DNA of 21,072 nucleotides from a virus: the IMG/VR virus record IMGVR_UViG_3300044796_000108, positions 1 to 21,072 of that record, one strand, 5' to 3'. This document shows, piece after piece, positions 1-20,983 of the stretch. Within the stretch, counting starts at the first letter, position 1; every line of letters starts with the position of its first letter. The notes below the pieces were generated by a model. The model was not told the origin of the DNA. It ran no database searches and saw only the letters and a list, made by a program, of their open reading frames with translations. The translations under genes were made by a program, and so were the position numbers.

Positions 1-384
1 CCAGACCTGCGGCGCGGCTCCATTGCTGGCCGACGTCACAAGCCCCTTGGCGTTGACCGTCACGGTGGCGTTGGTGTAGGTGCCCGGCGAGGTATTGACC
101 GTGGCCAGGGTGCCAGCCGCCGTGACGTTGGTGCTGCCGTCGAAGTTGACGTTCCAGGTCAGGTCGCCGGTGATGGCGATGTTCCGGGCCGCGGCCAGCT
201 TGGTCGCCGTGTCCGCCGCGCCTGCGTAGTTGATCTTGTCGTTCGCCTGGAGGAAGCCGAAGCTTGCCTTCACCTGATCCGCGGACATGAGCTGCCACGG
301 GCCAGGGGTGTTGGACACGCGCCCCATGATCCCCGCGCCCGGCGAGCCCAGGCGGACGGTGGTGATGGTAGTCAGGTTCGGCAT
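1..384 (-). CDS. Tail fibre protein, N-terminal part (truncated by window edge)
   Basis: The first 128 codons of a gene running off the left edge. It starts at an ATG whose A is the last base of the preceding gene's TAA (TAATG), with AGGGGAG about nine bases upstream. After a short N-terminal stretch the protein contains YAGAADTATKLAAARNIAIT and then a GTY-N-TVTVNAKGLVTSASNG segment. That Gly-Tyr-x-x-x-TVTVNAKGLVT pattern is characteristic of phage tail-fibre shaft repeats. Position after the gp16-like gene is where T7 places its fibre gene (gp17). The role inferred is host recognition by a trimeric fibre attached to the tail. The N-terminus does not obviously match the T7 gp17 virion-anchor domain. 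The receptor-binding end lies outside the window. Confidence 0.8.
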   Translation of the reverse strand, partial: MPNLTTITTVRLGSPGAGIMGRVSNTPGPWQLMSADQVKASFGFLQANDKINYAGAADTATKLAAARNIAITGDLTWNVNFDGSTNVTAAGTLATVNTSPGTYTNATVTVNAKGLVTSASNGAAPQVW

Positions 385-3300
385 TACCAGGGGCTCCCCT
401 GCGCCTGCGCGGCGGCTTCCGTGGGGTGCAGCGCGGTGAAGGCGACACCGGTGATCTTATCCCAGACGGCCTCACTGTGCTGGCGCTTGTCGTCCAGCGT
501 CATCTGGGGATTGTCCTTGATCTGATCGAGCGTGATCCGCAGCTTCTGGATCGCCTTCTCCGTGCGCTCTAACTCCGCGAGGCGCTGCGACTTCGCCGGC
601 AGGGGCTCATCCGGGTTGACGCCGCCCAGCCGGTCGGCCTTGGCTTGCGCCATCGCGCTGGTGTAGGGCTCCCTGGCCGCGTCAAGTTCGGTGTAGAAGT
701 CCTGTAACGGCTGGGCGCTGGCCGTGGGGTGCCTCACGATGATCCCGCGCACGAAGATGTTGGACAGCACGTCCTTGAGGTCCGACGTGTCGCCGCCGGA
801 CATGGGCGCGTTTAAAGCAGCCAGCGCGCCGTCGCCAATCTGGTCGCCCCAGCCGGTGACAAGATGGTCGAACATCATCGGGGAGAAGCCCTCGCCGACG
901 TGGCCAGCACGCATCAAGGGGTTGGTGAAGGCGGCCAGACGCTTCGCGGGCTCGCTGGTGTAGTCGGTGTAGCGGTCCTCGGGCAGGCGGTTCTTGAGGC
1001 TGTCCGGCACGAGCGGGCGGCCGGTGTTCCAGTTGTGGTTGGCGGCGACCTCAGTGATGGGGGTGGCGAAGTCCGGCAGCAGCGGGCCGACGAACTCGCG
1101 CACGAGGTCCGCGGTCCAGCCGTCGAAGGCGTGGCCGTTGTTCTCGTACATCATCTCCATAATACGCTCGGGGATGTCGCCGAAGATGTAGCCGATGTTC
1201 GCCGGCAGGCGGAAGGTGAAGCGCTGACCAGCGATGGGCGGCGTGATCAGGGCGGCGGAGCGCATGTTCCGCGGCAGGTCCATGTAGCGCGACCCGACCG
1301 GCAGGTGCTTGTCCGCCTCACGGTTCAGGACGTAGTTGATGATCTTGGGCAGGAGGATCGTAGCGACGCCGGCCGCCAGGACCTGCCCAAGCTTGATCCC
1401 CTTGGCCGTGGGGCTGGCCTCGGAGGAGAAGCCGGCGCGGTAGCCCTGCTCCATGCCGAGGATGTGCGGACGCCAGAAGGCGGTCAGCGAGGCCATGTAG
1501 CCCAGCAGCGCTTCGGTGCCGCGCTCAGCGTAGTCCAGGCCCGCCCGGCGCGCGGTGGCGGCCGACTTGGCGGCGTTCTGGCCGAGGGTGTTCTGCGCGT
1601 GTTGGCGGATGCCAATGCGGTTGGCGGCGTCCAGGCGGGTGCTCACCGCCTCAAGGCCCTCAACCCACTGCATGGGCTCCTTGAACGTGTTCCACGCCTT
1701 GTCCCAGAAGCCGGTCTTCTCCAGCAGCTCGTCGGTGGTCATGTGCTCGAAGAACTTGTCCGAGGTCAGGTCCTGCGAGATGTGCACCAGCCCGCCACTG
1801 GCCAGCAGCTCCTGATACCCCTTGCCACCGGACAGCGCCGGGATCAGGCCGCGGTAGAAGGTCAACACCGGCGGCGGGTGCGAGGGGTCCATCGTGAACT
1901 GATTGAATTGGTGCCAGATGGCCATGCGGAAGGGGAAGGTCCCCAGCGTGACACCGGCGCGCACGACGCGCGTCACAAGCTCCAGCCCCTTGAGGATGGT
2001 GTCGGCTTCTTCGGGGCGGTTCACGCCCTTGATCATTTGGGCGATCAGCGGGTCGTTGACCGTCCACTTCTCCAGCACGCCGTTGTTGCGGTAGACGAAC
2101 TCGTTGCCGCCCATCTTCCTCTGGAGGCGGTCGCTGATCACCTGAGCCCACGACGACTGAAGCTGCTTCCACTGCTCCAGCGCTTCCGGGGAGGCGTCCT
2201 CGGGCGGCTTGGAGTAGCCGTACTGCTTCAGGATCGCCTCGACCTCGTTCTCGTCCGGCGTCAGCTCGCCGACCTTCTTCAGGCCGAACTGCTCGACCAT
2301 GGCCGGGTCCGAGGTCAGGCGCGTGATCAGGTTGCCGATGGCGAGGTTGCGCAGCGCGGCCTTGACGCCCGAGAAGCTGTTCTGGATGGCGACGCCGAAC
2401 GGGTTGGACAAGTTCTCCGCACCACCCTTGACCTTGGCCAGACGTCCGCTCACGCCGCTCCGCTTCACGGTGGGCGCGTCCTCCTGCTGCTCGCGCCACG
2501 GCAGATAGATCGGGTTGCCCTCGACCATGCGGTCGTAGGCGTCGGCGCTGATGTAGCCGCTGTCGCGGAGCATCTTCAGCACGCCGTTCTGGGCCTGGGT
2601 CAGCATCTGGCTGGCCTTCATGAAGCCCTGCATCTTCGGGTTGCCGTCGTTTAGACGGGCCTCGATCTCCGCGGCAGCCATCGGGTTGAAGCCGCTCTCG
2701 ATCCCGAAGCGCTTGACCTTGTCCTGCGAGCGCATGGCGTTCATGAAGGCCATCCACTCGGACATCTTGCCGTGCTTCAGCGCCTCCGCCTTCGCGTCGA
2801 AGAAGCTCGGGATGGACTTGTCGGGCGTGCGGCTCAGCATGTCCACACCGCCGTACTTCAGCACGTGGGCCGCCATCCCGCGCCAGCCGTAGTTGGCCAG
2901 ACGGAAGTCGTCCTCCGTGTCCAGGTCCTTGTCGCGGTTCAGCAGCCCCTGCTGAACGAGCCGGTCGTCAATCCGCTTCGCCATGGTGATCTCGGAGACC
3001 CACTTGTCACCGAAGTCGTCAATCCAGTTGGCGGTCTTGTACTCCTCCATGGGCTGTTCGGCGACGTTCGCGTTCATCTCATCGAACAGCTGATCGTCGG
3101 TCGCGCCATGCCAGACGTTGCCAGCGCCCACGCTCGCACCCTTGCGCATGTTAAGGTCTTGCTCGGCGACCGGCTCCTCGGGGGTCTCCGTCTCATTGAT
3201 CTTGGAGATGGCTTCCTTCTCGGCGGCGATCTCACTCTCGATGCTGCGGCCCGGCGCGGTGTAGTCGGCCTCGCCGTGGGGAGCCTGGGCGGCCACGTCG

Positions 3301-4973
3301 TATTCGCTCTGCTCAACGCTGCCCTTACCCCACAGGCGCGCCTTGGCCAGATACTCCTGGGTCTCCTGCGGCAGGAACGCCTCGTCGCGGTCGGCCGGCA
3401 CGCGCTCGTAGCGGACGCCGCCGCGGACGTTCTTGTCGATAGTGGCTTCGAGCTTGGTGCCAGGCCCCTTGGACAGATACTCGCTGGCCCGGCCCGGCCC
3501 GGCGTTGTAGCCGATCATGACCGCGTTCTGATTGCCACCGTAGCGCCGGTTGAGGTCGCGGATGATGGTGTCGGCCACCATCGCGTTGTACTGCGGATCG
3601 TGTAAACGGCTCGGATCGAAGCCGTACTGGCGCGCCGTCGCCGGCATGATCTGGAACCGACCCACCGCGCCCTTGGGGCTGATCGCGGCGTCGGGGTTCT
3701 TGAGGCCGCCAGTCTCGATCTTGCCAACCGTCTCAAGCTCGTGCGTGCCGAAGGTAGGGACAAGCTCCTTGCCCGGCTGCTCGACCGTGGTCTCGCCGGG
3801 GGTGATGCCCGCGCGCTCCGCAACGCTCTTGGCCGCGCCGAACGCGCGCTTCGGAGGCGTGAACGGCTCGGGGTCGCTGGGGGCGGTGTAGCGGAACTTG
3901 GGCGTGACCGGGTCGCCATTGACGTCCTGGGCGAAGACTTCCTCGCGGAACTTGGGGTCGGTCTTGGCGCGCTGCGCGGCTTCCCACGGAGGAATGCCGG
4001 TCTTGACGTAGATGTCTTGGAGGTTCGAGGCGACGTGGCTTTCCGCAGGCGAGACCTTGCCCGGACCCATGGAAGACACCACGCCGTGCGCCAGGAGCGC
4101 CAGGGAGGCCGCCGTGAAGAAGTCCTGGGCGTCGGGCACCTTGTGGTCCAGGAGGGCTCCAGTCGCCGTGCTGGTGGCCGTATTCGCCGCGATGTCCGAC
4201 ACCGCCGCCACAGCCTCTGGCGCGACCATGCCGACCGCCTTGCCCGCGACAGGGCCAGCCAGACCGCCCGCGCCGCTCGCCAGAGTGACCTTGGCCGTCT
4301 GCCCAGCGGCCTGCGCGCCCGCCTGGACCGCCTGCTTCCACGTGTGGATTTCGTTGCGCTTGTAGGCCAGGATGACAGACTGCCGCGTCCCCTCGGTCAG
4401 CGCACCGGCAGACGCCGAACCCGTCACCGAAGCGCCGATGGCCGCGCCCACAGCTTCCGACGTGCCCGTCTCGCCCGCGCCCGGCACAGCCGCACCAGCG
4501 AGGCCGCCGATCCGCGCGCCCACGGGGGCACCGCGGACGAAGCCCGCCAGCTGGGTGGGGAGGTCGCCGATCTCCTGGCCGCCGGCAAAGGCCAGCTGGG
4601 TCATGAAGTCCTTGGAGTGGAAGTCCGCCGGCAGATGTGCGGTGCCTCCGCTCTTGATGAAGTTCGTCTCCAGGCCGGTCACAGAGTGATCCCAGCCCGC
4701 CGCAAACGCGGTCAGGGGGTCGCTGACGCTGCCCTGGGGCGCGCGCTGCATGTTGCCGGCGACGGCCTTACTGACGGTCGCGGAGGTCGGCTGGCCCTCA
4801 CCCCAATACTTCTGGATGCGGTCCAGCGGCACGCCGCCGTCCACCAGCGCCTGGGTCCGAGCCTGCTTCCACGCGTCGGCCTTCTGCTGGGGCACGCCGC
4901 CGTCGATCAAGGCTTGATAGGCCGAGGCCCCAGGAGCCATCTGGGGCGAGTTCGTGGTGCCGATATCGGCCAT
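384..4973 (-). CDS. Giant internal virion (ejection) protein with internal lytic transglycosylase, T7 gp16-like
   Basis: A 1529-residue ejection protein expected to leave the capsid at infection and help the genome cross the cell envelope. Residues 17-59 hold a tandem repeat of a short helical unit (YQALIDGGVP / TQALVDGGVP). Residues 130-300 are Gly/Ala-rich and weakly hydrophobic. Residues about 405-550 form a family-1 lytic transglycosylase: KIETGG with presumed catalytic Glu420, then SPKGAVGRFQIMPATA and GYNAGPGR. Residues about 1000-1290 resemble the LPD38 'large polyvalent protein' domain (PFRMAIWHQFNQF; LTAFWRPHILGMEQGYRAG). T7 gp16 (1318 residues) carries its transglycosylase at the extreme N-terminus, so this internal placement differs. 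The ATG lies one base after the previous stop, with GGGAAAG upstream. Family and role are well supported; LPD38 is recognised by pattern only. Confidence 0.88.
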   Translation of the reverse strand: MADIGTTNSPQMAPGASAYQALIDGGVPQQKADAWKQARTQALVDGGVPLDRIQKYWGEGQPTSATVSKAVAGNMQRAPQGSVSDPLTAFAAGWDHSVTGLETNFIKSGGTAHLPADFHSKDFMTQLAFAGGQEIGDLPTQLAGFVRGAPVGARIGGLAGAAVPGAGETGTSEAVGAAIGASVTGSASAGALTEGTRQSVILAYKRNEIHTWKQAVQAGAQAAGQTAKVTLASGAGGLAGPVAGKAVGMVAPEAVAAVSDIAANTATSTATGALLDHKVPDAQDFFTAASLALLAHGVVSSMGPGKVSPAESHVASNLQDIYVKTGIPPWEAAQRAKTDPKFREEVFAQDVNGDPVTPKFRYTAPSDPEPFTPPKRAFGAAKSVAERAGITPGETTVEQPGKELVPTFGTHELETVGKIETGGLKNPDAAISPKGAVGRFQIMPATARQYGFDPSRLHDPQYNAMVADTIIRDLNRRYGGNQNAVMIGYNAGPGRASEYLSKGPGTKLEATIDKNVRGGVRYERVPADRDEAFLPQETQEYLAKARLWGKGSVEQSEYDVAAQAPHGEADYTAPGRSIESEIAAEKEAISKINETETPEEPVAEQDLNMRKGASVGAGNVWHGATDDQLFDEMNANVAEQPMEEYKTANWIDDFGDKWVSEITMAKRIDDRLVQQGLLNRDKDLDTEDDFRLANYGWRGMAAHVLKYGGVDMLSRTPDKSIPSFFDAKAEALKHGKMSEWMAFMNAMRSQDKVKRFGIESGFNPMAAAEIEARLNDGNPKMQGFMKASQMLTQAQNGVLKMLRDSGYISADAYDRMVEGNPIYLPWREQQEDAPTVKRSGVSGRLAKVKGGAENLSNPFGVAIQNSFSGVKAALRNLAIGNLITRLTSDPAMVEQFGLKKVGELTPDENEVEAILKQYGYSKPPEDASPEALEQWKQLQSSWAQVISDRLQRKMGGNEFVYRNNGVLEKWTVNDPLIAQMIKGVNRPEEADTILKGLELVTRVVRAGVTLGTFPFRMAIWHQFNQFTMDPSHPPPVLTFYRGLIPALSGGKGYQELLASGGLVHISQDLTSDKFFEHMTTDELLEKTGFWDKAWNTFKEPMQWVEGLEAVSTRLDAANRIGIRQHAQNTLGQNAAKSAATARRAGLDYAERGTEALLGYMASLTAFWRPHILGMEQGYRAGFSSEASPTAKGIKLGQVLAAGVATILLPKIINYVLNREADKHLPVGSRYMDLPRNMRSAALITPPIAGQRFTFRLPANIGYIFGDIPERIMEMMYENNGHAFDGWTADLVREFVGPLLPDFATPITEVAANHNWNTGRPLVPDSLKNRLPEDRYTDYTSEPAKRLAAFTNPLMRAGHVGEGFSPMMFDHLVTGWGDQIGDGALAALNAPMSGGDTSDLKDVLSNIFVRGIIVRHPTASAQPLQDFYTELDAAREPYTSAMAQAKADRLGGVNPDEPLPAKSQRLAELERTEKAIQKLRITLDQIKDNPQMTLDDKRQHSEAVWDKITGVAFTALHPTEAAAQAQGSPW

Positions 4974-4974
4974 G

Positions 4975-6579
4975 TTACTTTCCCACGCGCTTCAAGTACG
5001 CGTCCAGGTCTTCCTTACCATCCCACTTCGGCTGTGTCGAGGCATTCGCGCTCGGGGCCATCGGCGCTTGGCCGGCGCTCAGGCCCGCCTTGGTGGGGGC
5101 GATGACCTTCCAGTGATCCAGGTAGTGGCCGATGAAATACTGCGAGTGCGGGTCCAACAGGGCCTGCTGCGCTTCAGCCGGGCTGTGTCCCTGGCCCACG
5201 TACCAATTGACCGCGTTCTGCACGGCAACCTTGTAGGCATAGAAGCTCTTGATCCCGTCCGCGGTGGCGGTCGAGCCGGACGCGCCCAGCTGGAGCTTGT
5301 AGGCGTCCACGAAGGAGTTGACCTGAGCCTGGAGCTGTGCCATGCCAGGGGTCTTGCTACTGTCCAGCGCCTTCGAGAGGACCTCGCCGTCATGGTTCGA
5401 GATTTGCCGCTGCGCGACCGCGCGCCAGATTTCCGCCGGCTCCAGCGCGCCGGGCTGGCCGGGGGCGATGGCAGTGCGGCCGATGAAGTCGCTGAAGACA
5501 GACGGGTTGCTGGTGACGAGCCGCCCGGACGCGCTATCCTCCGTCGCGGTCTTGATCATCTCCGTGAAGCTCTTGATGGCTTCGGGCTTCGCGCCCAGCG
5601 AGGCGAGACTCATGGCGATCTTATTGGCGTTCTGGGGCGGGAGCCAGGAGCCATCCGGCTGCACTCCCGAGGCGTACAGCTGGCTCAGGGCGGTGTTCAC
5701 CTTGTCTTCCGTCTGGCGGCGCTGGTTCTCATTGGCGACGTTGGCGTCGCGGATGCGCTGCTCCTTCACGGTCTGGGCATAGCGGTCTACACTATCGCGC
5801 TGCTCAGTGTCCAGGTAGAGCTGCGCCTCAGGCAGCGAGTGGAACAGCTTGGCCGCCTTCAGCGGGCCGTCCGGGTCGTTCGGGTCCGACTGGTCGATCA
5901 GACCGCGCGCCTGCGCCAGGGTGATCGAGCCCTTCGTAACCGCGTGGTCGGCGTCTAAACGCTCGATGGCCTCGGGGGTGGCGTTCGAGCCGAGCCCGGA
6001 CTTCAGCGCGTCCACGCTGTCGCCTACCAGCCCGCGCTGGAGGTTTGCGGAGCTTGGGTCGTTATACGCCGCACTTTCCGCGGCGTTTGCGGTGGTCTTC
6101 AGGTCCTGGATCGCCTGCATCCCGGCGAGCGATCCCATGTCGGCGAGGCCGCGCTCCATGAAGTGCTGGGTGAGGTCGGCCTTCTTCTCCTGCCACCACG
6201 CCTTGCTCTGCTCGGTCGAGAAGCCGCTGTCCATGCTGTCGAGCATGGGGCCGAGGGTCTTCTCCCTCCAGGTGTCGAACAGGTGTGCGTCGTGCGTGGG
6301 CGCGGCGGCGTCCGCGGCGATGGCCTGCCGCCAGGACTGCTCCAGCGCGCCATAGGTGCGCGTGACGTTCGCCACGCCGGTCAGATGCTCGCGCATCGTG
6401 ACTTCATTCTCGTAGCGCTGGCCGGCCGCGTCTACCTCACCGCCCAGCTGGCGCGTATCCTGGGCGATCTGGCTGAAGGACGCCTCGATGTGGCGGCCCT
6501 CCAACTCCCTGGCCTCGATCCCCTTGTCGCTGGGTTGGAGGCCGTTGATCGGGTTCTCGTACTGGCGGATATTAGGCAT
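4975..6579 (-). CDS. Internal virion protein, T7 gp15-like (position-based)
   Basis: A 534-residue, mostly helical, Ala/Gln-rich soluble protein without signal peptide or membrane segment. It lies between the gp14-like and gp16-like genes, where T7 encodes gp15, a component of the ejectosome tube that spans the periplasm. It starts with MPNIRQYENPINGL and has long predicted helices from residue 35 onwards (for example KEQRIRDANVANENQRRQTE). The first codons overlap the previous gene's end by eight bases, and the stop lies one base before the gp16-like ATG. I see no catalytic motif. T7 gp15 is larger (747 residues). Assignment rests on gene order, length class and composition, so other core or internal virion roles are possible. 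Confidence 0.65.
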   Translation of the reverse strand: MPNIRQYENPINGLQPSDKGIEARELEGRHIEASFSQIAQDTRQLGGEVDAAGQRYENEVTMREHLTGVANVTRTYGALEQSWRQAIAADAAAPTHDAHLFDTWREKTLGPMLDSMDSGFSTEQSKAWWQEKKADLTQHFMERGLADMGSLAGMQAIQDLKTTANAAESAAYNDPSSANLQRGLVGDSVDALKSGLGSNATPEAIERLDADHAVTKGSITLAQARGLIDQSDPNDPDGPLKAAKLFHSLPEAQLYLDTEQRDSVDRYAQTVKEQRIRDANVANENQRRQTEDKVNTALSQLYASGVQPDGSWLPPQNANKIAMSLASLGAKPEAIKSFTEMIKTATEDSASGRLVTSNPSVFSDFIGRTAIAPGQPGALEPAEIWRAVAQRQISNHDGEVLSKALDSSKTPGMAQLQAQVNSFVDAYKLQLGASGSTATADGIKSFYAYKVAVQNAVNWYVGQGHSPAEAQQALLDPHSQYFIGHYLDHWKVIAPTKAGLSAGQAPMAPSANASTQPKWDGKEDLDAYLKRVGK

Positions 6580-16055: not shown

Positions 16056-16291
16056 CACGGCACCCACACGTAGGGGTCAGCCTGGGCCGCGAGCGCAAGC
16101 AAGGTCGGCAGGTCGCGCAAGTAGTCTGCGGGGTGCTGCCGGAAGCGCTCCAGCTGCCACAGACTATCGCTGCGCGACCAATCCCGGTCGGGTAGGTCAG
16201 TCGTCGCGGTGAGCGACAGCTTCCCGTCCCGTTGTTCGTACCGCCGCATGACGCCCTCCTTGGCGTCGATACAGACGAGATGGCGTATCAT
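16055..16291 (-). CDS. Small conserved-position hypothetical protein downstream of portal
   Basis: A 78-residue, charged, soluble protein (MIRHLVCIDAKEGVMRRYEQ at the start, LWQLERFRQHPADYLRDLP further on). ATG 16291 overlaps the portal TGA and has AAGGAGG six bases upstream. An adjacent in-frame GTG (16294) is less likely. The stop overlaps the Bbp19-like start, so portal, this gene and the next appear translationally coupled. I do not recognise a domain. Confidence 0.72.
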   Translation of the reverse strand: MIRHLVCIDAKEGVMRRYEQRDGKLSLTATTDLPDRDWSRSDSLWQLERFRQHPADYLRDLPTLLALAAQADPYVWVP

Positions 16292-18042
16292 CACTGTCCT
16301 CCTTGGCTCCCCACGATGGGCACCGGCGGGCCGGGCTGTTGCTGCTGGGCTCCCGGCGGCCCGCCCATGCCAGCCTTGGCCTGCGCAGCCTGGGCCTTCA
16401 TCATGGCGGCTTGCGCCGGCGCGGCCTGGATTTGCTCCTGGCGCTTCTGCGCTTCGGCGCGGGCCTGCCGCTTCTGGGCGATCTGCTCGGGCGATGCCAT
16501 CCAGCTTTCCGGGACGCTCTGGATTTGGGCGATCTGCGGGATGGCCGTGTCGAAGTCGAAGGGGTCCAGGTAGCTCGGGTCCTGGGTGATGTTGACGATC
16601 TCCTTGACCGTCTCCACCGTCCGCATGAAGCCGGCGGCCTCCTGCGCGCGCATCGCACGGCTCAGGGGCGACGTGTAAACGACCTCGTACTCGCCGCGGG
16701 CTTCGGCAAGCTCGGGCGGCATGGGTGGCAGCATGCGCAGCTGGATCAGCAGGTCAAGCTCGCGCTCGATCATCGGGCCGAGGTATTCGCTCTGCTGCCG
16801 GCCCACGGTCGGGGCCAGCAGGATGCCCTTCTCGTTGGTGCGCTCGATCACTTCGGTCGCCGTCATGGTCGGCGTCTCGGTCAGGATTTGGAACAGTGCC
16901 ACGAGGAACGCGTCCATGATGAGGGACTTCTCCTCGTCCATCATCTCCTTGTTCAGCGACAGGTTGCCGACCGGCAGGGGCTGCACCAGCAGCTTGCCAT
17001 CTTGGTTCACGCCACCCTTGTTCAGCGCGCCGGGCCGCATCGAGAAGTCAATGATCCCGTCGTCGGCGGCCAGCAGCACGGGGTCAACCGCGCGGTGGCC
17101 CTGCTTCAGGAAGGTGCGCTTCTGGGCATTCAGGGTCTTCAGCGCTGGCAGCACCATCATCGCGGGCGAGCGCCCGTAGGTCTCGCCGGGGGTCTGGTCG
17201 TAGCGGCTGATGGCCACGGGGAAGGTGTGGTAGCCGCCCTCTTCGAGCAGGCACTTGCCCTGGAGTGAGATGTAGTAGCTCGCGAAGCGCTTGCCCTTCG
17301 GCCCCAGCGCGCCCGGCTCGTAGTCCGGGTTGGGCAGCACGCGGTGCAGATAGTCGCCCGGCGTTTGGTCGCCGGTGGTCATGCCGTTCTTGACCTGCTC
17401 GGGGCAACGCTCGCCCCAGCGCTCCCAGGCTTGCTGGGGCGTGAGCCGGAACCAGCGGATGAAGCTATTGACCAGCCCCTGGTGGTTCTCGCGAATGAAC
17501 AGCTCGCCGAGCGGGATGGCCTTGTAGCGGAGCGCCCGCATCGGGGTGTTCGCTTCGTCCACCGCTTGGTCCACGAACATGGCCCCAGTCCCGAAGGCCC
17601 CGAGGCTCTGGTAGTTGTTCTGGTTCTGGCCAGAGAAGTTGCCGATGGGCGCGTAGCGCGCCTTGAAGAGCATCTTGGTCGCGTCCTCGAACCACATGCG
17701 GACGCGCCGCACCTTCATCAGGTCCGGGTTGCTCGGGGCGAGGCCGTGCCAGAACATGTTGCGCGGAGTGAGCAGGCTGTCCAAGATCGCGGCGAAGCGG
17801 TGCAGCGCCATCATGCCGTTGGCGTCCACCTGCCGGTCGGTCTTCTTGACGCCTGGCCAGTTGAAGTTGCCGAACATGAAGGTGTTGCGGGAGGTCGGCA
17901 GGATCAGCTCCGCCACTTCCTCCCACTGGCCGCCGAAGGTATTGCGCCACAGCTGGTCCTGCGAGAAGTCGCGCAGGGTCTCTTCCACGATGCGCTCCTC
18001 GCGGGACGAGTAAATCTGGCTTCCGTCTGGCTTGTACAGCAT
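16291..18042 (-). CDS. Portal protein (head-to-tail connector, T7 gp8-like)
   Basis: A 583-residue portal, close to T7 gp8 (536). The N-terminal region fits the head-to-tail connecting protein family (PF12236 type): WRNTFGGQWEEVAELILPTS, DANGMMALHRFAAILDSLLT and TPRNMFWHGL (about residues 32-101). Further family-like segments are QNQNNYQSLGAFGTGAMFVD, FIRWFRLTPQQAWERWGE and EVVYTSPLSRAMRAQEAAGF. The C-terminal 80 residues are Gln/Ala/Pro-rich with a coiled-coil-like helix. The portal forms the twelve-fold ring through which DNA is packaged by terminase and to which the gp11-like adaptor binds. The ATG shares a base with the preceding TAA (TAATG). Confidence 0.92.
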   Translation of the reverse strand: MLYKPDGSQIYSSREERIVEETLRDFSQDQLWRNTFGGQWEEVAELILPTSRNTFMFGNFNWPGVKKTDRQVDANGMMALHRFAAILDSLLTPRNMFWHGLAPSNPDLMKVRRVRMWFEDATKMLFKARYAPIGNFSGQNQNNYQSLGAFGTGAMFVDQAVDEANTPMRALRYKAIPLGELFIRENHQGLVNSFIRWFRLTPQQAWERWGERCPEQVKNGMTTGDQTPGDYLHRVLPNPDYEPGALGPKGKRFASYYISLQGKCLLEEGGYHTFPVAISRYDQTPGETYGRSPAMMVLPALKTLNAQKRTFLKQGHRAVDPVLLAADDGIIDFSMRPGALNKGGVNQDGKLLVQPLPVGNLSLNKEMMDEEKSLIMDAFLVALFQILTETPTMTATEVIERTNEKGILLAPTVGRQQSEYLGPMIERELDLLIQLRMLPPMPPELAEARGEYEVVYTSPLSRAMRAQEAAGFMRTVETVKEIVNITQDPSYLDPFDFDTAIPQIAQIQSVPESWMASPEQIAQKRQARAEAQKRQEQIQAAPAQAAMMKAQAAQAKAGMGGPPGAQQQQPGPPVPIVGSQGGQ

Positions 18043-18743: not shown

Positions 18744-20228
18744 TCAACCGAAGACGTCGAAGTCAACATCCCTGGCGACCTGGGGTGCCATGCGCGCCCC
18801 CTGGTTCGAATTCGGGCCGAGCGCCACGGCCTTGGAGAAGCGCTTGGCCATCACGCCGATCCGCGTGGCCGACATCAGGTCGTCGTTGATCTTGACGATC
18901 AAGCCGTCCTTGCGGTGGTAGAGGCGGAACTCCTCGAACCACTCGGTCAGGTGCTTGGCGACCTTTAAACGCCCCGTGCGGAACCGCTCTTGCATCTCCA
19001 TGATGCCAGCCTCGGTCGAGAACCCGCCGTCCGGGAAGGTCGCGTGGGTCGGCAGCATCCGCACGCCGTAGGTCTTGTACTGCTTGGCCAGGGTCGTGGT
19101 CTCGCCGTTCGACGCCTCGCGCCGCTGGTTGCCGTCGTGCGGCCACGCGCACGGGACTTCCGCGCCGATCCGCTTCATCTGGACGGTGTGCTGGAGTGGG
19201 AACTGGTCCTTCAGTTTAAACGCATGGTGGACGTGAAGGACGTCGTTCTCGCGATCCCATAGGAGGAGCACCGCGGCGAACGCGTGGTTGATCCCGAAGT
19301 CGATTGCCCAGAGCTTGGTCCAGTAGAAGGGGATGCGCTCGGCCGGGATGGCGTCTTCCCAGATGCTCTCCTCCGACACCTGGAAGACCTTGCCCTCGCC
19401 CAGCATCGGCACACCGCGGACCCGCGCTTCGCGCTCGTGGGCGGCGTAGGAGGCAATGATCTTCTCGCGCTCCTCCAGCGGGATGTGCTGGGCGTCGTCA
19501 ATGGTCATCTGCGTCAGCACGCGCTGCGCCGCGCCGGGATCGGAGGGGTCCGGCATGAAGAACTTGCGGGCGACGTCGGTCATGCCGTTCAGGGGGGTGA
19601 ATGTCGTGTAGACGAAGCCCCCGGTGGCGTTGGTGCGGGTCAGGACCTCGCTGTAGATGTCCTGCGGCGGCTCTTCGTCCATCCAACAAAAGTCAATGGC
19701 CTCGGACTGGTGCTTCTGCCGGCCCTGCTCATACGACTTGAACGTCACCGTGGAGACGCCGTCGCAGGTCCCGTCCGGCCGGAAGTGCTTGACCTGCCCG
19801 GTGTCGAACGCGTCCGTCACGCCGCGCGCCAGGGAGGGCCGCTCCACGATGCAGTCCTTGGGGATGTAGCCAGTGCCGAGGGCCGCCTCAACGCCGGGCT
19901 CGCCGAAGAGCTTGCGCTGCGGGGCGTCGCGCACGAGGACCCCCGTCTCCCCATCCACCCAGGCGCGCACCGGCTTGCGGAACTTCCGCCCCGGCCACCA
20001 CTCGGGATAGAGCCCGGTCAGGTGGTAGGCCGTCTCCGCGCTGCCCGCCTCGGTCTTGCCCTGCTGGTTGCCGGCGCTAAGCAGGCGTTCGCGGTGGGTC
20101 CTGCCGTTGGCGAAGAACTCCAGCTGCTTCGGGTACGGCTTGAAGAACTCCAGCTTGTGGTAGAGCTTGCGGTCGTGTAGCGCCTGGAGTGACTGCTCAA
20201 GCTCCTGGAGCTGTTGGAGGTCGGTCAC
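18744..20228 (-). CDS. Terminase large subunit (TerL)
   Basis: The 494-residue packaging motor. The ATPase domain has Walker A SAGNQQGKTEAG (residues 51-62, Lys58), Walker B IDFCWMDEEPP (Asp184, Glu185) and a coupling motif YTTFTP. The nuclease domain has the acidic residues expected of the RNase H-like fold: WAIDFG (Asp310), WPHDG (Asp365) and KINDD (Asp449/450). It starts at GTG 20228, whose TG is shared with the terS TGA (GTGA), with GGAG six bases upstream. The motor cuts concatemeric DNA and drives it through the portal. All key residues are present, so it should be active. Length is normal for the family. Confidence 0.95.
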   Translation of the reverse strand: MTDLQQLQELEQSLQALHDRKLYHKLEFFKPYPKQLEFFANGRTHRERLLSAGNQQGKTEAGSAETAYHLTGLYPEWWPGRKFRKPVRAWVDGETGVLVRDAPQRKLFGEPGVEAALGTGYIPKDCIVERPSLARGVTDAFDTGQVKHFRPDGTCDGVSTVTFKSYEQGRQKHQSEAIDFCWMDEEPPQDIYSEVLTRTNATGGFVYTTFTPLNGMTDVARKFFMPDPSDPGAAQRVLTQMTIDDAQHIPLEEREKIIASYAAHEREARVRGVPMLGEGKVFQVSEESIWEDAIPAERIPFYWTKLWAIDFGINHAFAAVLLLWDRENDVLHVHHAFKLKDQFPLQHTVQMKRIGAEVPCAWPHDGNQRREASNGETTTLAKQYKTYGVRMLPTHATFPDGGFSTEAGIMEMQERFRTGRLKVAKHLTEWFEEFRLYHRKDGLIVKINDDLMSATRIGVMAKRFSKAVALGPNSNQGARMAPQVARDVDFDVFG

Positions 20229-20983
20229 AGCGCGCTCCAGTCTTCCTCGTCGTCCTTTAGCTCACCGCCTCCGTCACTAGGTCCCTCGCCGCCCGGTGCG
20301 ACCTCAACAGCAGTTGGGTCTTCTCGATGTCCTGCCGGCACGTGTCCAGGTCCGTCATGTAGCCCACTTCGTAGCGGCGCTGCTGCCGTAACCTGTCCTC
20401 CAGTAGCTTGATCTCCCTCTCGATGGTCTCCAGAACTTCCTTCATCGTGTACCTCCTGAAATTCCGCGTCAATGATAGTGGGGTCCACCCCGGCTTGCAA
20501 GAGCAATGGCCGCGGGTCAATGTTCATCATGGACGCGAGGTTCCGAATTCTCGCGACCGTGGCTTCGATGCTGGGCTCGGGCTTTATCACTTCGATCCTC
20601 TGGAGCTTGACTGGGGCATGGCCAGACTGATCCAGGAGCATGCCGATGGCCTTCACCCGGTCCTTATGGCCAGCGTCCAGCACCACGTCGATCAGCGCCT
20701 CGGCGGCCAGGAGCCCGCTGAACTTCATCCGGCTAGCGGCGATCTTGTTCACCGCGTCGATCACGTCTTCGTCGTGCATGAGCCGGTGCAGCGCGACCCG
20801 TCTGGCCCCGTCCGTCCCGCCAAAGCCAGCCATCGCCGCGGCTCGGCCAGGGTCCTTCCCCCCGGTCTCGACCATCGCCCAGACGAAATTCTGTTGATTT
20901 TCCGTCAACTTAGCCATGCACGGCAAGTTCCGGTACTTCTCCGGGGCTGTCACAATCGGGCGGTTGGCGGTGTCGTGGGGCAT
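20225..20983 (-). CDS. Terminase small subunit (TerS)
   Basis: A DNA-recognition subunit upstream of TerL, 252 codons from ATG 20983. An internal ATG at 20917 (MAKLTENQQNFV) would give 230 residues and matches the usual family N-terminus, but its ribosome site is weak. The upstream ATG would lie at or next to the predicted transcription start. LTENQQNFVWAMVETGGKD and AAAMAGF begin a helix-turn-helix-type DNA-binding region. Helical segments follow to IIDAEFQEV near residue 178. From residue 180 to 242 the frame overlaps a second gene in another frame. There its codon use becomes atypical and its product Gly/Asp-rich, before an acidic end (KDDEEDWSAL). The stop overlaps the TerL GTG. Confidence 0.83.
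   Translation of the reverse strand: MPHDTANRPIVTAPEKYRNLPCMAKLTENQQNFVWAMVETGGKDPGRAAAMAGFGGTDGARRVALHRLMHDEDVIDAVNKIAASRMKFSGLLAAEALIDVVLDAGHKDRVKAIGMLLDQSGHAPVKLQRIEVIKPEPSIEATVARIRNLASMMNIDPRPLLLQAGVDPTIIDAEFQEVHDEGSSGDHREGDQATGGQVTAAAPLRSGLHDGPGHVPAGHREDPTAVEVAPGGEGPSDGGGELKDDEEDWSAL
20257..20445 (-). CDS. Nested out-of-frame small coiled-coil protein inside terS 3' end
   Basis: 62 codons entirely inside terS in another frame. The ATG at 20445 has AGGAGGT five bases upstream, the strongest ribosome-site match in the packaging block. The product is a charged amphipathic helix pair (MKEVLETIEREIKLLEDRLR at the start, CRQDIEKTQLLLRSH later). In the overlap this frame ends codons mostly with G or C, as real genes here do, while the terS frame does not, so this frame looks like the one under stronger codon selection. 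The TAA stop lies 28 bases before the TerL GTG. Function unknown. A packaging-related role or a regulator of terminase is conceivable from location only. Confidence 0.65.
   Translation of the reverse strand: MKEVLETIEREIKLLEDRLRQQRRYEVGYMTDLDTCRQDIEKTQLLLRSHRAARDLVTEAVS

Follow-up and report, generated by a model that had tools for sequence, protein, structure and literature searches.

The 3' end of the small terminase gene (terS) of a podovirus-like phage encloses a complete second gene of 62 codons in another frame. We consider it likely that translation occurs in both frames, that an extension of terS overran a gene already present in the slot between terS and the large terminase gene (terL), and that the TerS tail thereby encoded is probably under selection as well. 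The DNA analysed, called the window here, is a single IMG/VR record of 21,072 bp, a metagenomic contig; family matches of its portal, capsid and terminase genes marked the phage as podovirus-like. All features of the locus lie on the minus strand (Table 1).

Table 1. Features of the terS-terL junction in the window.
Feature	Position	Strand	Basis or remark
terS, small terminase subunit, 252 aa	20225..20983	-	HMM homologs in about 90 relatives
Nested gene, 62 aa + TAA	20257..20445	-	Codon signal; start position kept in relatives
AGGAGGT ribosome-binding site	20451..20457	-	Formed by terS codons CAG GAG GTA (Q-E-V)
terS core-end codons, DAEFQEV	20450..20470	-	Conserved among terS homologs
terS tail coding stretch past the core, 74 codons	20228..20449	-	Overlaps the nested gene at 20257-20445
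terS C-terminal peptide KDDEEDWSAL, acidic-W terminus	20228..20257	-	Sequence
GTGA, terS stop overlapping terL start	20225..20228	-	Sequence
terL, large terminase subunit, 494 aa, GTG start	18744..20228	-	Terminase_6N / 6C; PHROG terL

The terS gene sits directly upstream of terL, and the nested ORF lies fully within terS, in frame +1 relative to it. The original prediction had placed a ribosome site five bases before an out-of-frame ATG inside terS, and the minus-strand sequence verified this arrangement: AGGAGGT, the five bases ACACG, then ATG. The coordinates also agreed with the predicted gap of 28 bases between the nested stop and the terL GTG. The codons for KDDEEDWSAL contain GGAG-N6-GTG, a possible ribosome site for terL. 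Throughout the window, AGGAGG with an ATG 4-9 nt downstream occurred four times against 0.95 expected, with plausible gene starts at two of the three other sites.

Some further features of the window were recorded. At 16289-16303 (-) the sequence AGGAGGACAGTGATG forms a tandem GTG and ATG behind a perfect ribosome site, where a 79-aa ORF (16294-16055) starts. A 1529-aa protein encoded at 384-4973 (-) has a lytic-transglycosylase-like stretch (ISPKGAVGRFQIMPATARQYGF...YNAGPGRASEYL) and, by eye, the look of an ejection protein. Opposite its gene lie antisense ORFs of 596 and 454 codons, at 864-2654 (+) and 3741-5105 (+), of a kind typical of high-GC shadow frames.

The terS product is a TerS of the Terminase_2 / PaP3-SF6 type, with a PaP3/SF6-like core at about residues 21-178 and a disordered tail at 179-252. 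The closest solved TerS was that of PaP3 (6W7T), matched by the terS profile with an E-value of 1.5e-15, and the DNA-binding domain of SF6 TerS (4ZC3) was matched by sequence profile at 6e-5. Terminase_2 (PF03592) was matched by 45 of the 56 members of the terS alignment. The window sequence alone had no match in Pfam and a single one in PHROGs (phrog_2538, E 0.0097). An AF2 model computed with 56 sequences was confident over the core, where helices spanning residues 28-119 (pLDDT about 90) provided the N-terminal HTH and the helical oligomerisation core, and fell to a pLDDT of about 50 in the tail. In the fold comparison, the SF6 DNA-binding domain matched the model with a TMt of 0.78, but at a weak E-value of 3.7.

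The nested product, which includes the stretch MKEVLETIEREIK..., had been described as a coiled coil. Its helical nature was borne out, but AF2, given the single sequence without an alignment, returned a two-helix hairpin instead (pLDDT 91). Searched alone against phage proteins, the 62-residue protein had no homolog; none was found in viral contigs, annotated phages, plasmids or 11 named relatives, and no family matched in Pfam, PHROGs or NCBIfam. It is therefore an ORFan in all collections searched, which leaves the nested frame with no independent test by conservation. BFVD and the fold library gave generic hairpins only (E > 0.8). Two candidate homologs were rejected: the slot protein of relative L205, which did not rise over the shuffled background (z 0.8), and the A4 family described below (hhalign probability 0.1%). 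Because other phages put unrelated genes at this place (an endolysin in PaP3), the chances seem about even that the predicted hairpin protein is an accessory rather than a core packaging part.

The lack of homologs, together with the fact that an ATG and a Shine-Dalgarno (SD) sequence may arise by chance, would suit a spurious nested ORF and a long-tailed terS that exists alone. We find this very unlikely in view of the gene-like codon usage, the perfect SD and the confident predicted fold of the ORF, the conservation of its start position in a dozen relatives, and the presence in L100, L101, L104 and L246 of an ORF at (nearly) the same place that belongs to a recurrent small-protein family.

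The coding signal over the overlap belonged to the nested frame. Its GC content by codon position was gene-like (.60/.33/.87), and that of the terS frame (.89/.60/.33) was the same pattern moved by one base, so terS lacks an independent codon signal in this stretch. The KDDEEDWSAL codons gave.64/.36/.82. A sliding codon model, built on the codon usage of the other genes, favoured the terS frame to about 20488 and the nested frame from about 20473, quit the nested frame at about 20293-20278 and settled on terS again near the end. Both measures thus agreed with the expectation of genome-typical codons in the nested frame, atypical ones in terS over the overlap and a return to normal terS usage in KDDEEDWSAL. 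According to Pavesi et al., the frame with typical codon usage is the older one (PMC3744397); judged by this criterion, the nested frame would be older than the terS frame in the overlap. Among the points against our best explanation is that, measured against this genome, the synonymous codons of the nested gene were less typical than expected, by 3 sd.

Searches with terL, portal and capsid sequences yielded about 300 relative loci, designated L with a number, the longest relatives being about 44-46 kb. The terS HMM found 88 distinct terS sequences, with a few more among the capsid matches. Most terS cores ended in DAEF(S/E/T)EV or a near variant, beyond which 0 to about 96 residues followed. 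Since the initial codon/SD gene caller overlooked short or weak slot genes, starts were then taken straight from the junction sequences. The codons for E-E-V at the core end read GAGGAGGT or similar and serve as a ribosome site. With the SD in the EV codons, a small gene starts at +4 nt (+1 frame) in the window, L100, L101, L205, L211, L213, L153, L246 and L163, and terL itself begins at this position and frame in L020, L023, L165, L219 and L266; in L104 the next gene begins at -5. The contents of the slot vary among relatives, different genes occupying one start base.

The usual immediate stop of terS arises because the slot gene, beginning ATG GCT GA(x), holds a TGA in the terS frame (EVKDG*). 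Many relatives have the resulting three-residue tail, and a long tail is therefore not essential in the clade. Where the terS frame meets no stop within the slot gene, terS continues across it, for 74 codons past the core in the window, 68 in L100, 96 in L101 and 25 in L104. Among the relatives examined, the slot gene ends before terS in the window only. L205, whose terL is the closest to that of the window by identity (60%), has a 58-aa slot gene with the same start and frame and a terL start at the matching place, but its terS ends after EVKDG, with almost no overlap. L100 and L101, also IMG/VR contigs, share with the window the start position and frame, a long terS tail (68-96 aa) and the acidic-W terminus; their slot genes differ in being longer (137-158 aa), in belonging to the A4 family and in extending beyond the end of terS as far as the terL start. 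A terminase tree grouped the window with L208, L100, L101, L110, L117 and L227 with weak support and placed L100 and L101 as sisters.

This distribution supported the proposed extension of terS across a small gene that was already in place, since the start point is conserved in relatives where terS usually stops. Relatives with a normal terS stop do occur (for example L205, L213 and L020), but the position and frame of the nested ATG are conserved in them too, so that the claim is refined rather than refuted. The early stop in relatives such as L205, three codons past the core, and the derivation of the window from a single metagenomic contig might raise the suspicion that terS truly ends near 20445 and that an indel or miscalled stop lengthened its frame. 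Such an assembly or sequencing error is highly improbable: a dozen independent contigs have exactly this distance between core end and ATG (+4 nt, +1 frame), which excludes an indel there, and comparable readthrough occurs in L100, L101 and L104. The reverse order of events, in which the small gene originated inside a long terS tail that already existed, could draw on the ORFan status of the gene and on terS tails of 25-47 aa that have no overlapping gene (L231, L227, L232). We judge this de novo overprinting improbable, as the codon usage makes the nested frame the older one and the slot with its +1 start is widespread, usually next to a short terS.

Several slot proteins had features of their own. 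A4 is a helical family found in the slot of L121 (L121:3347-3592), L100 (L100:3623-4033), L101 (L101:3127-3600), L104 (L104:3189-3470), L246 (L246:3242-3496) and others, and also between terS and terL in L217, L224, L129 and L099. Its signature is L..AA..L..T..SLG.......Y..A..L, and the members tested against Pfam and PHROGs had no match. The slot protein of L213 is Cys-rich, and the slot gene of L153 (L153:1003-1215), with a +4 start and a 62-nt overlap with terS, looks by eye like a ribbon-helix-helix DNA-binding protein. The L100 slot protein contains EWTADP and that of L101 (3127-3600) DTWTVLP, which resembles the WTV ends of terS in L121, L124 and L104, albeit in another frame. A viral scan for further L101-like loci recovered L101 alone.

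The C-termini of terS fell into recognisable types. GLEDLL or a similar end was present in 20 of the 88 sequences; in L127, L126, L122, L141, L103, L116, L157, L138 and others it was encoded by CTGGAGGACTTGCTATGA-like DNA, whose codons double as a GGAGGA ribosome site and the ATGA start of the next gene, so that protein motif and SD constraint are confounded. Acidic-W ends, a motif defined only after the window had been seen, terminated 14 of 85 terS proteins against 56 of 7971 other ORFs (a background of 0.7%). They were present in the window, L100, L101 and L104, and straight after the core in L287 (EGDDEWTV) and L291 (TDWAGV). The TGG AGC of such an end may double as a ribosome site for terL.

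The charge of the window's tail pointed to probable selection on terS as well. With a pLDDT of about 50 and a net charge of -8 over the overlap, the tail is predicted to be a disordered acidic C-terminus of the PaP3-like kind. When the nested protein was recoded with genome codon usage, the expected charge across the overlap was +2.8 (z -4.7); the minimum among 179 control windows of other genes was z -2.6. The recoding score varies with a gene's own codon usage, reaching -7.1 in L025, a control without terS overlap, and the weaker permutation test is therefore the fair one. A permutation that redistributed the synonymous codons already used in the nested gene over its positions, a null that takes out its codon bias, gave z -2.8 (P 0.0024), a value reached by one of the 179 within-genome control windows (z -2.85). 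The permutation z was -3.3 in L101 and -2.4 in L100, which are sisters, while the lowest value among 37 slot genes without terS overlap was -2.3; in L104 no charge effect was found. Substitution counts by codon position between L100 and L101 were near saturation, with many indels, and uninformative. The openness of the terS frame was dropped as evidence for the tail, since the frame stayed open in 37% of recodings with nested protein and genome codon usage fixed, which is not significant.

On these results, selection probably maintains the acidity of the terS tail and in doing so biases the synonymous codons of the slot gene. The earlier idea that the small gene dominates selection accordingly held for codon usage, but the tail charge and the acidic-W C-terminus also suggest selection on terS. 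It is less probable, though a chance to be reckoned with, that the nested gene is real and the tail a passive extension without function, the slot gene merely having no stop in the terS frame. The frequency of chance openness, the missing codon signal in the terS frame and the commonness of short-tailed terS would all fit a passive tail. This tail, however, is much more acidic than the sequence of the nested protein requires, has the acidic-W end of other terS proteins, rare as such ends are in the background, and stops exactly upon the terL start.

A frameshift product joining terS to the nested frame had also been suggested. An SD-like AGGAGG does lie just upstream of the frame change, as an SD-like element lies just upstream of the frameshift in prfB. 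But the site has no stop and no evident slippery codon, the nested frame has its own ATG, and the fusion occurs in no relative. With each frame having its own start or stop, nothing points to a programmed frameshift, and we regard it as extremely improbable.

The nearest known arrangement is that of Pseudomonas phage PaP3 (Bruynoghevirus). Like the window, PaP3 has a PaP3-type TerS and, between terS and terL, an unrelated gene that starts in the 3' end of terS. In its record this gene, orf2 (T4-lysozyme-like, endolysin), overlaps terS by 68 nt, in the +1 frame as in the window ((2370-1979) mod 3 = 1); it overlaps the acidic TerS tail, and its end coincides with the terL start. A lysozyme or endolysin gene is likewise annotated beneath the terS match in other records that have a PaP3-like terS. 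The difference is that orf2 extends far past terS, whereas the window gene is 189 nt long, lies fully inside and encodes an unrelated hairpin. Residues 122-152 of PaP3 TerS form an acidic tail that could not be seen in the crystal and is not needed for DNA binding; the tail of P22 TerS, by contrast, was reported to be essential for DNA and TerL binding (PMC7672466). Overprinted pairs in viruses and bacteria, which yield two proteins from a single stretch, resemble the window in that one frame has genome-typical codons and the other atypical ones (PMC3744397, PMC4683798); in the window, however, the frame that looks younger extends an old gene at its C-terminus and is not a new stand-alone gene. 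The overlap of a slot gene with the terS tail is thus already known from deposited annotation (PaP3), and the window adds complete nesting, a start point fixed within DAEFxEV and the effect on charge. It represents the extreme of an overlap arrangement that is already known, not a new kind of system. Phage annotations seldom include a gene that lies completely inside another on its strand, since such genes are apt to be dropped by gene callers.

In the explanation we favour, the terS core-end DAEF(x)EV codons of this podovirus-like clade form an SD site, and the ATG 4 nt on in the +1 frame opens the slot. The slot of the window holds the 62-codon gene for the predicted hairpin, which would be translated from its own AGGAGGT. 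As this gene offers no stop in the terS frame, ribosomes translating terS would traverse it entirely and make a disordered acidic tail ending in EEDWSAL, with the stop upon the terL start codon (GTGA); this would keep the translation of terL directly next to that of terS. Of the two overlapping frames, that of the slot gene would have come first, and terS would have been extended across it later. The tail might act as an adaptor contacting TerL, DNA or the portal, and the hairpin as an accessory protein. More tentatively, and with the chances somewhat against it, the slot could be an exchangeable position whose cargo also encodes the TerS adaptor tail in another frame. A swap of cargo would then rewrite the tail, selection on the tail would shape the synonymous codons of the cargo, and the window would represent full nesting with both products functional.

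The conserved start point explains how the nesting in the window arose, and it illustrates how an out-of-frame start can lie within the codons of a conserved protein motif. At this locus the shared coding of a motor-protein tail and an unrelated small protein can be put to the test. The case also calls for caution, since unannotated genes can hide in the terS 3' ends of this clade.
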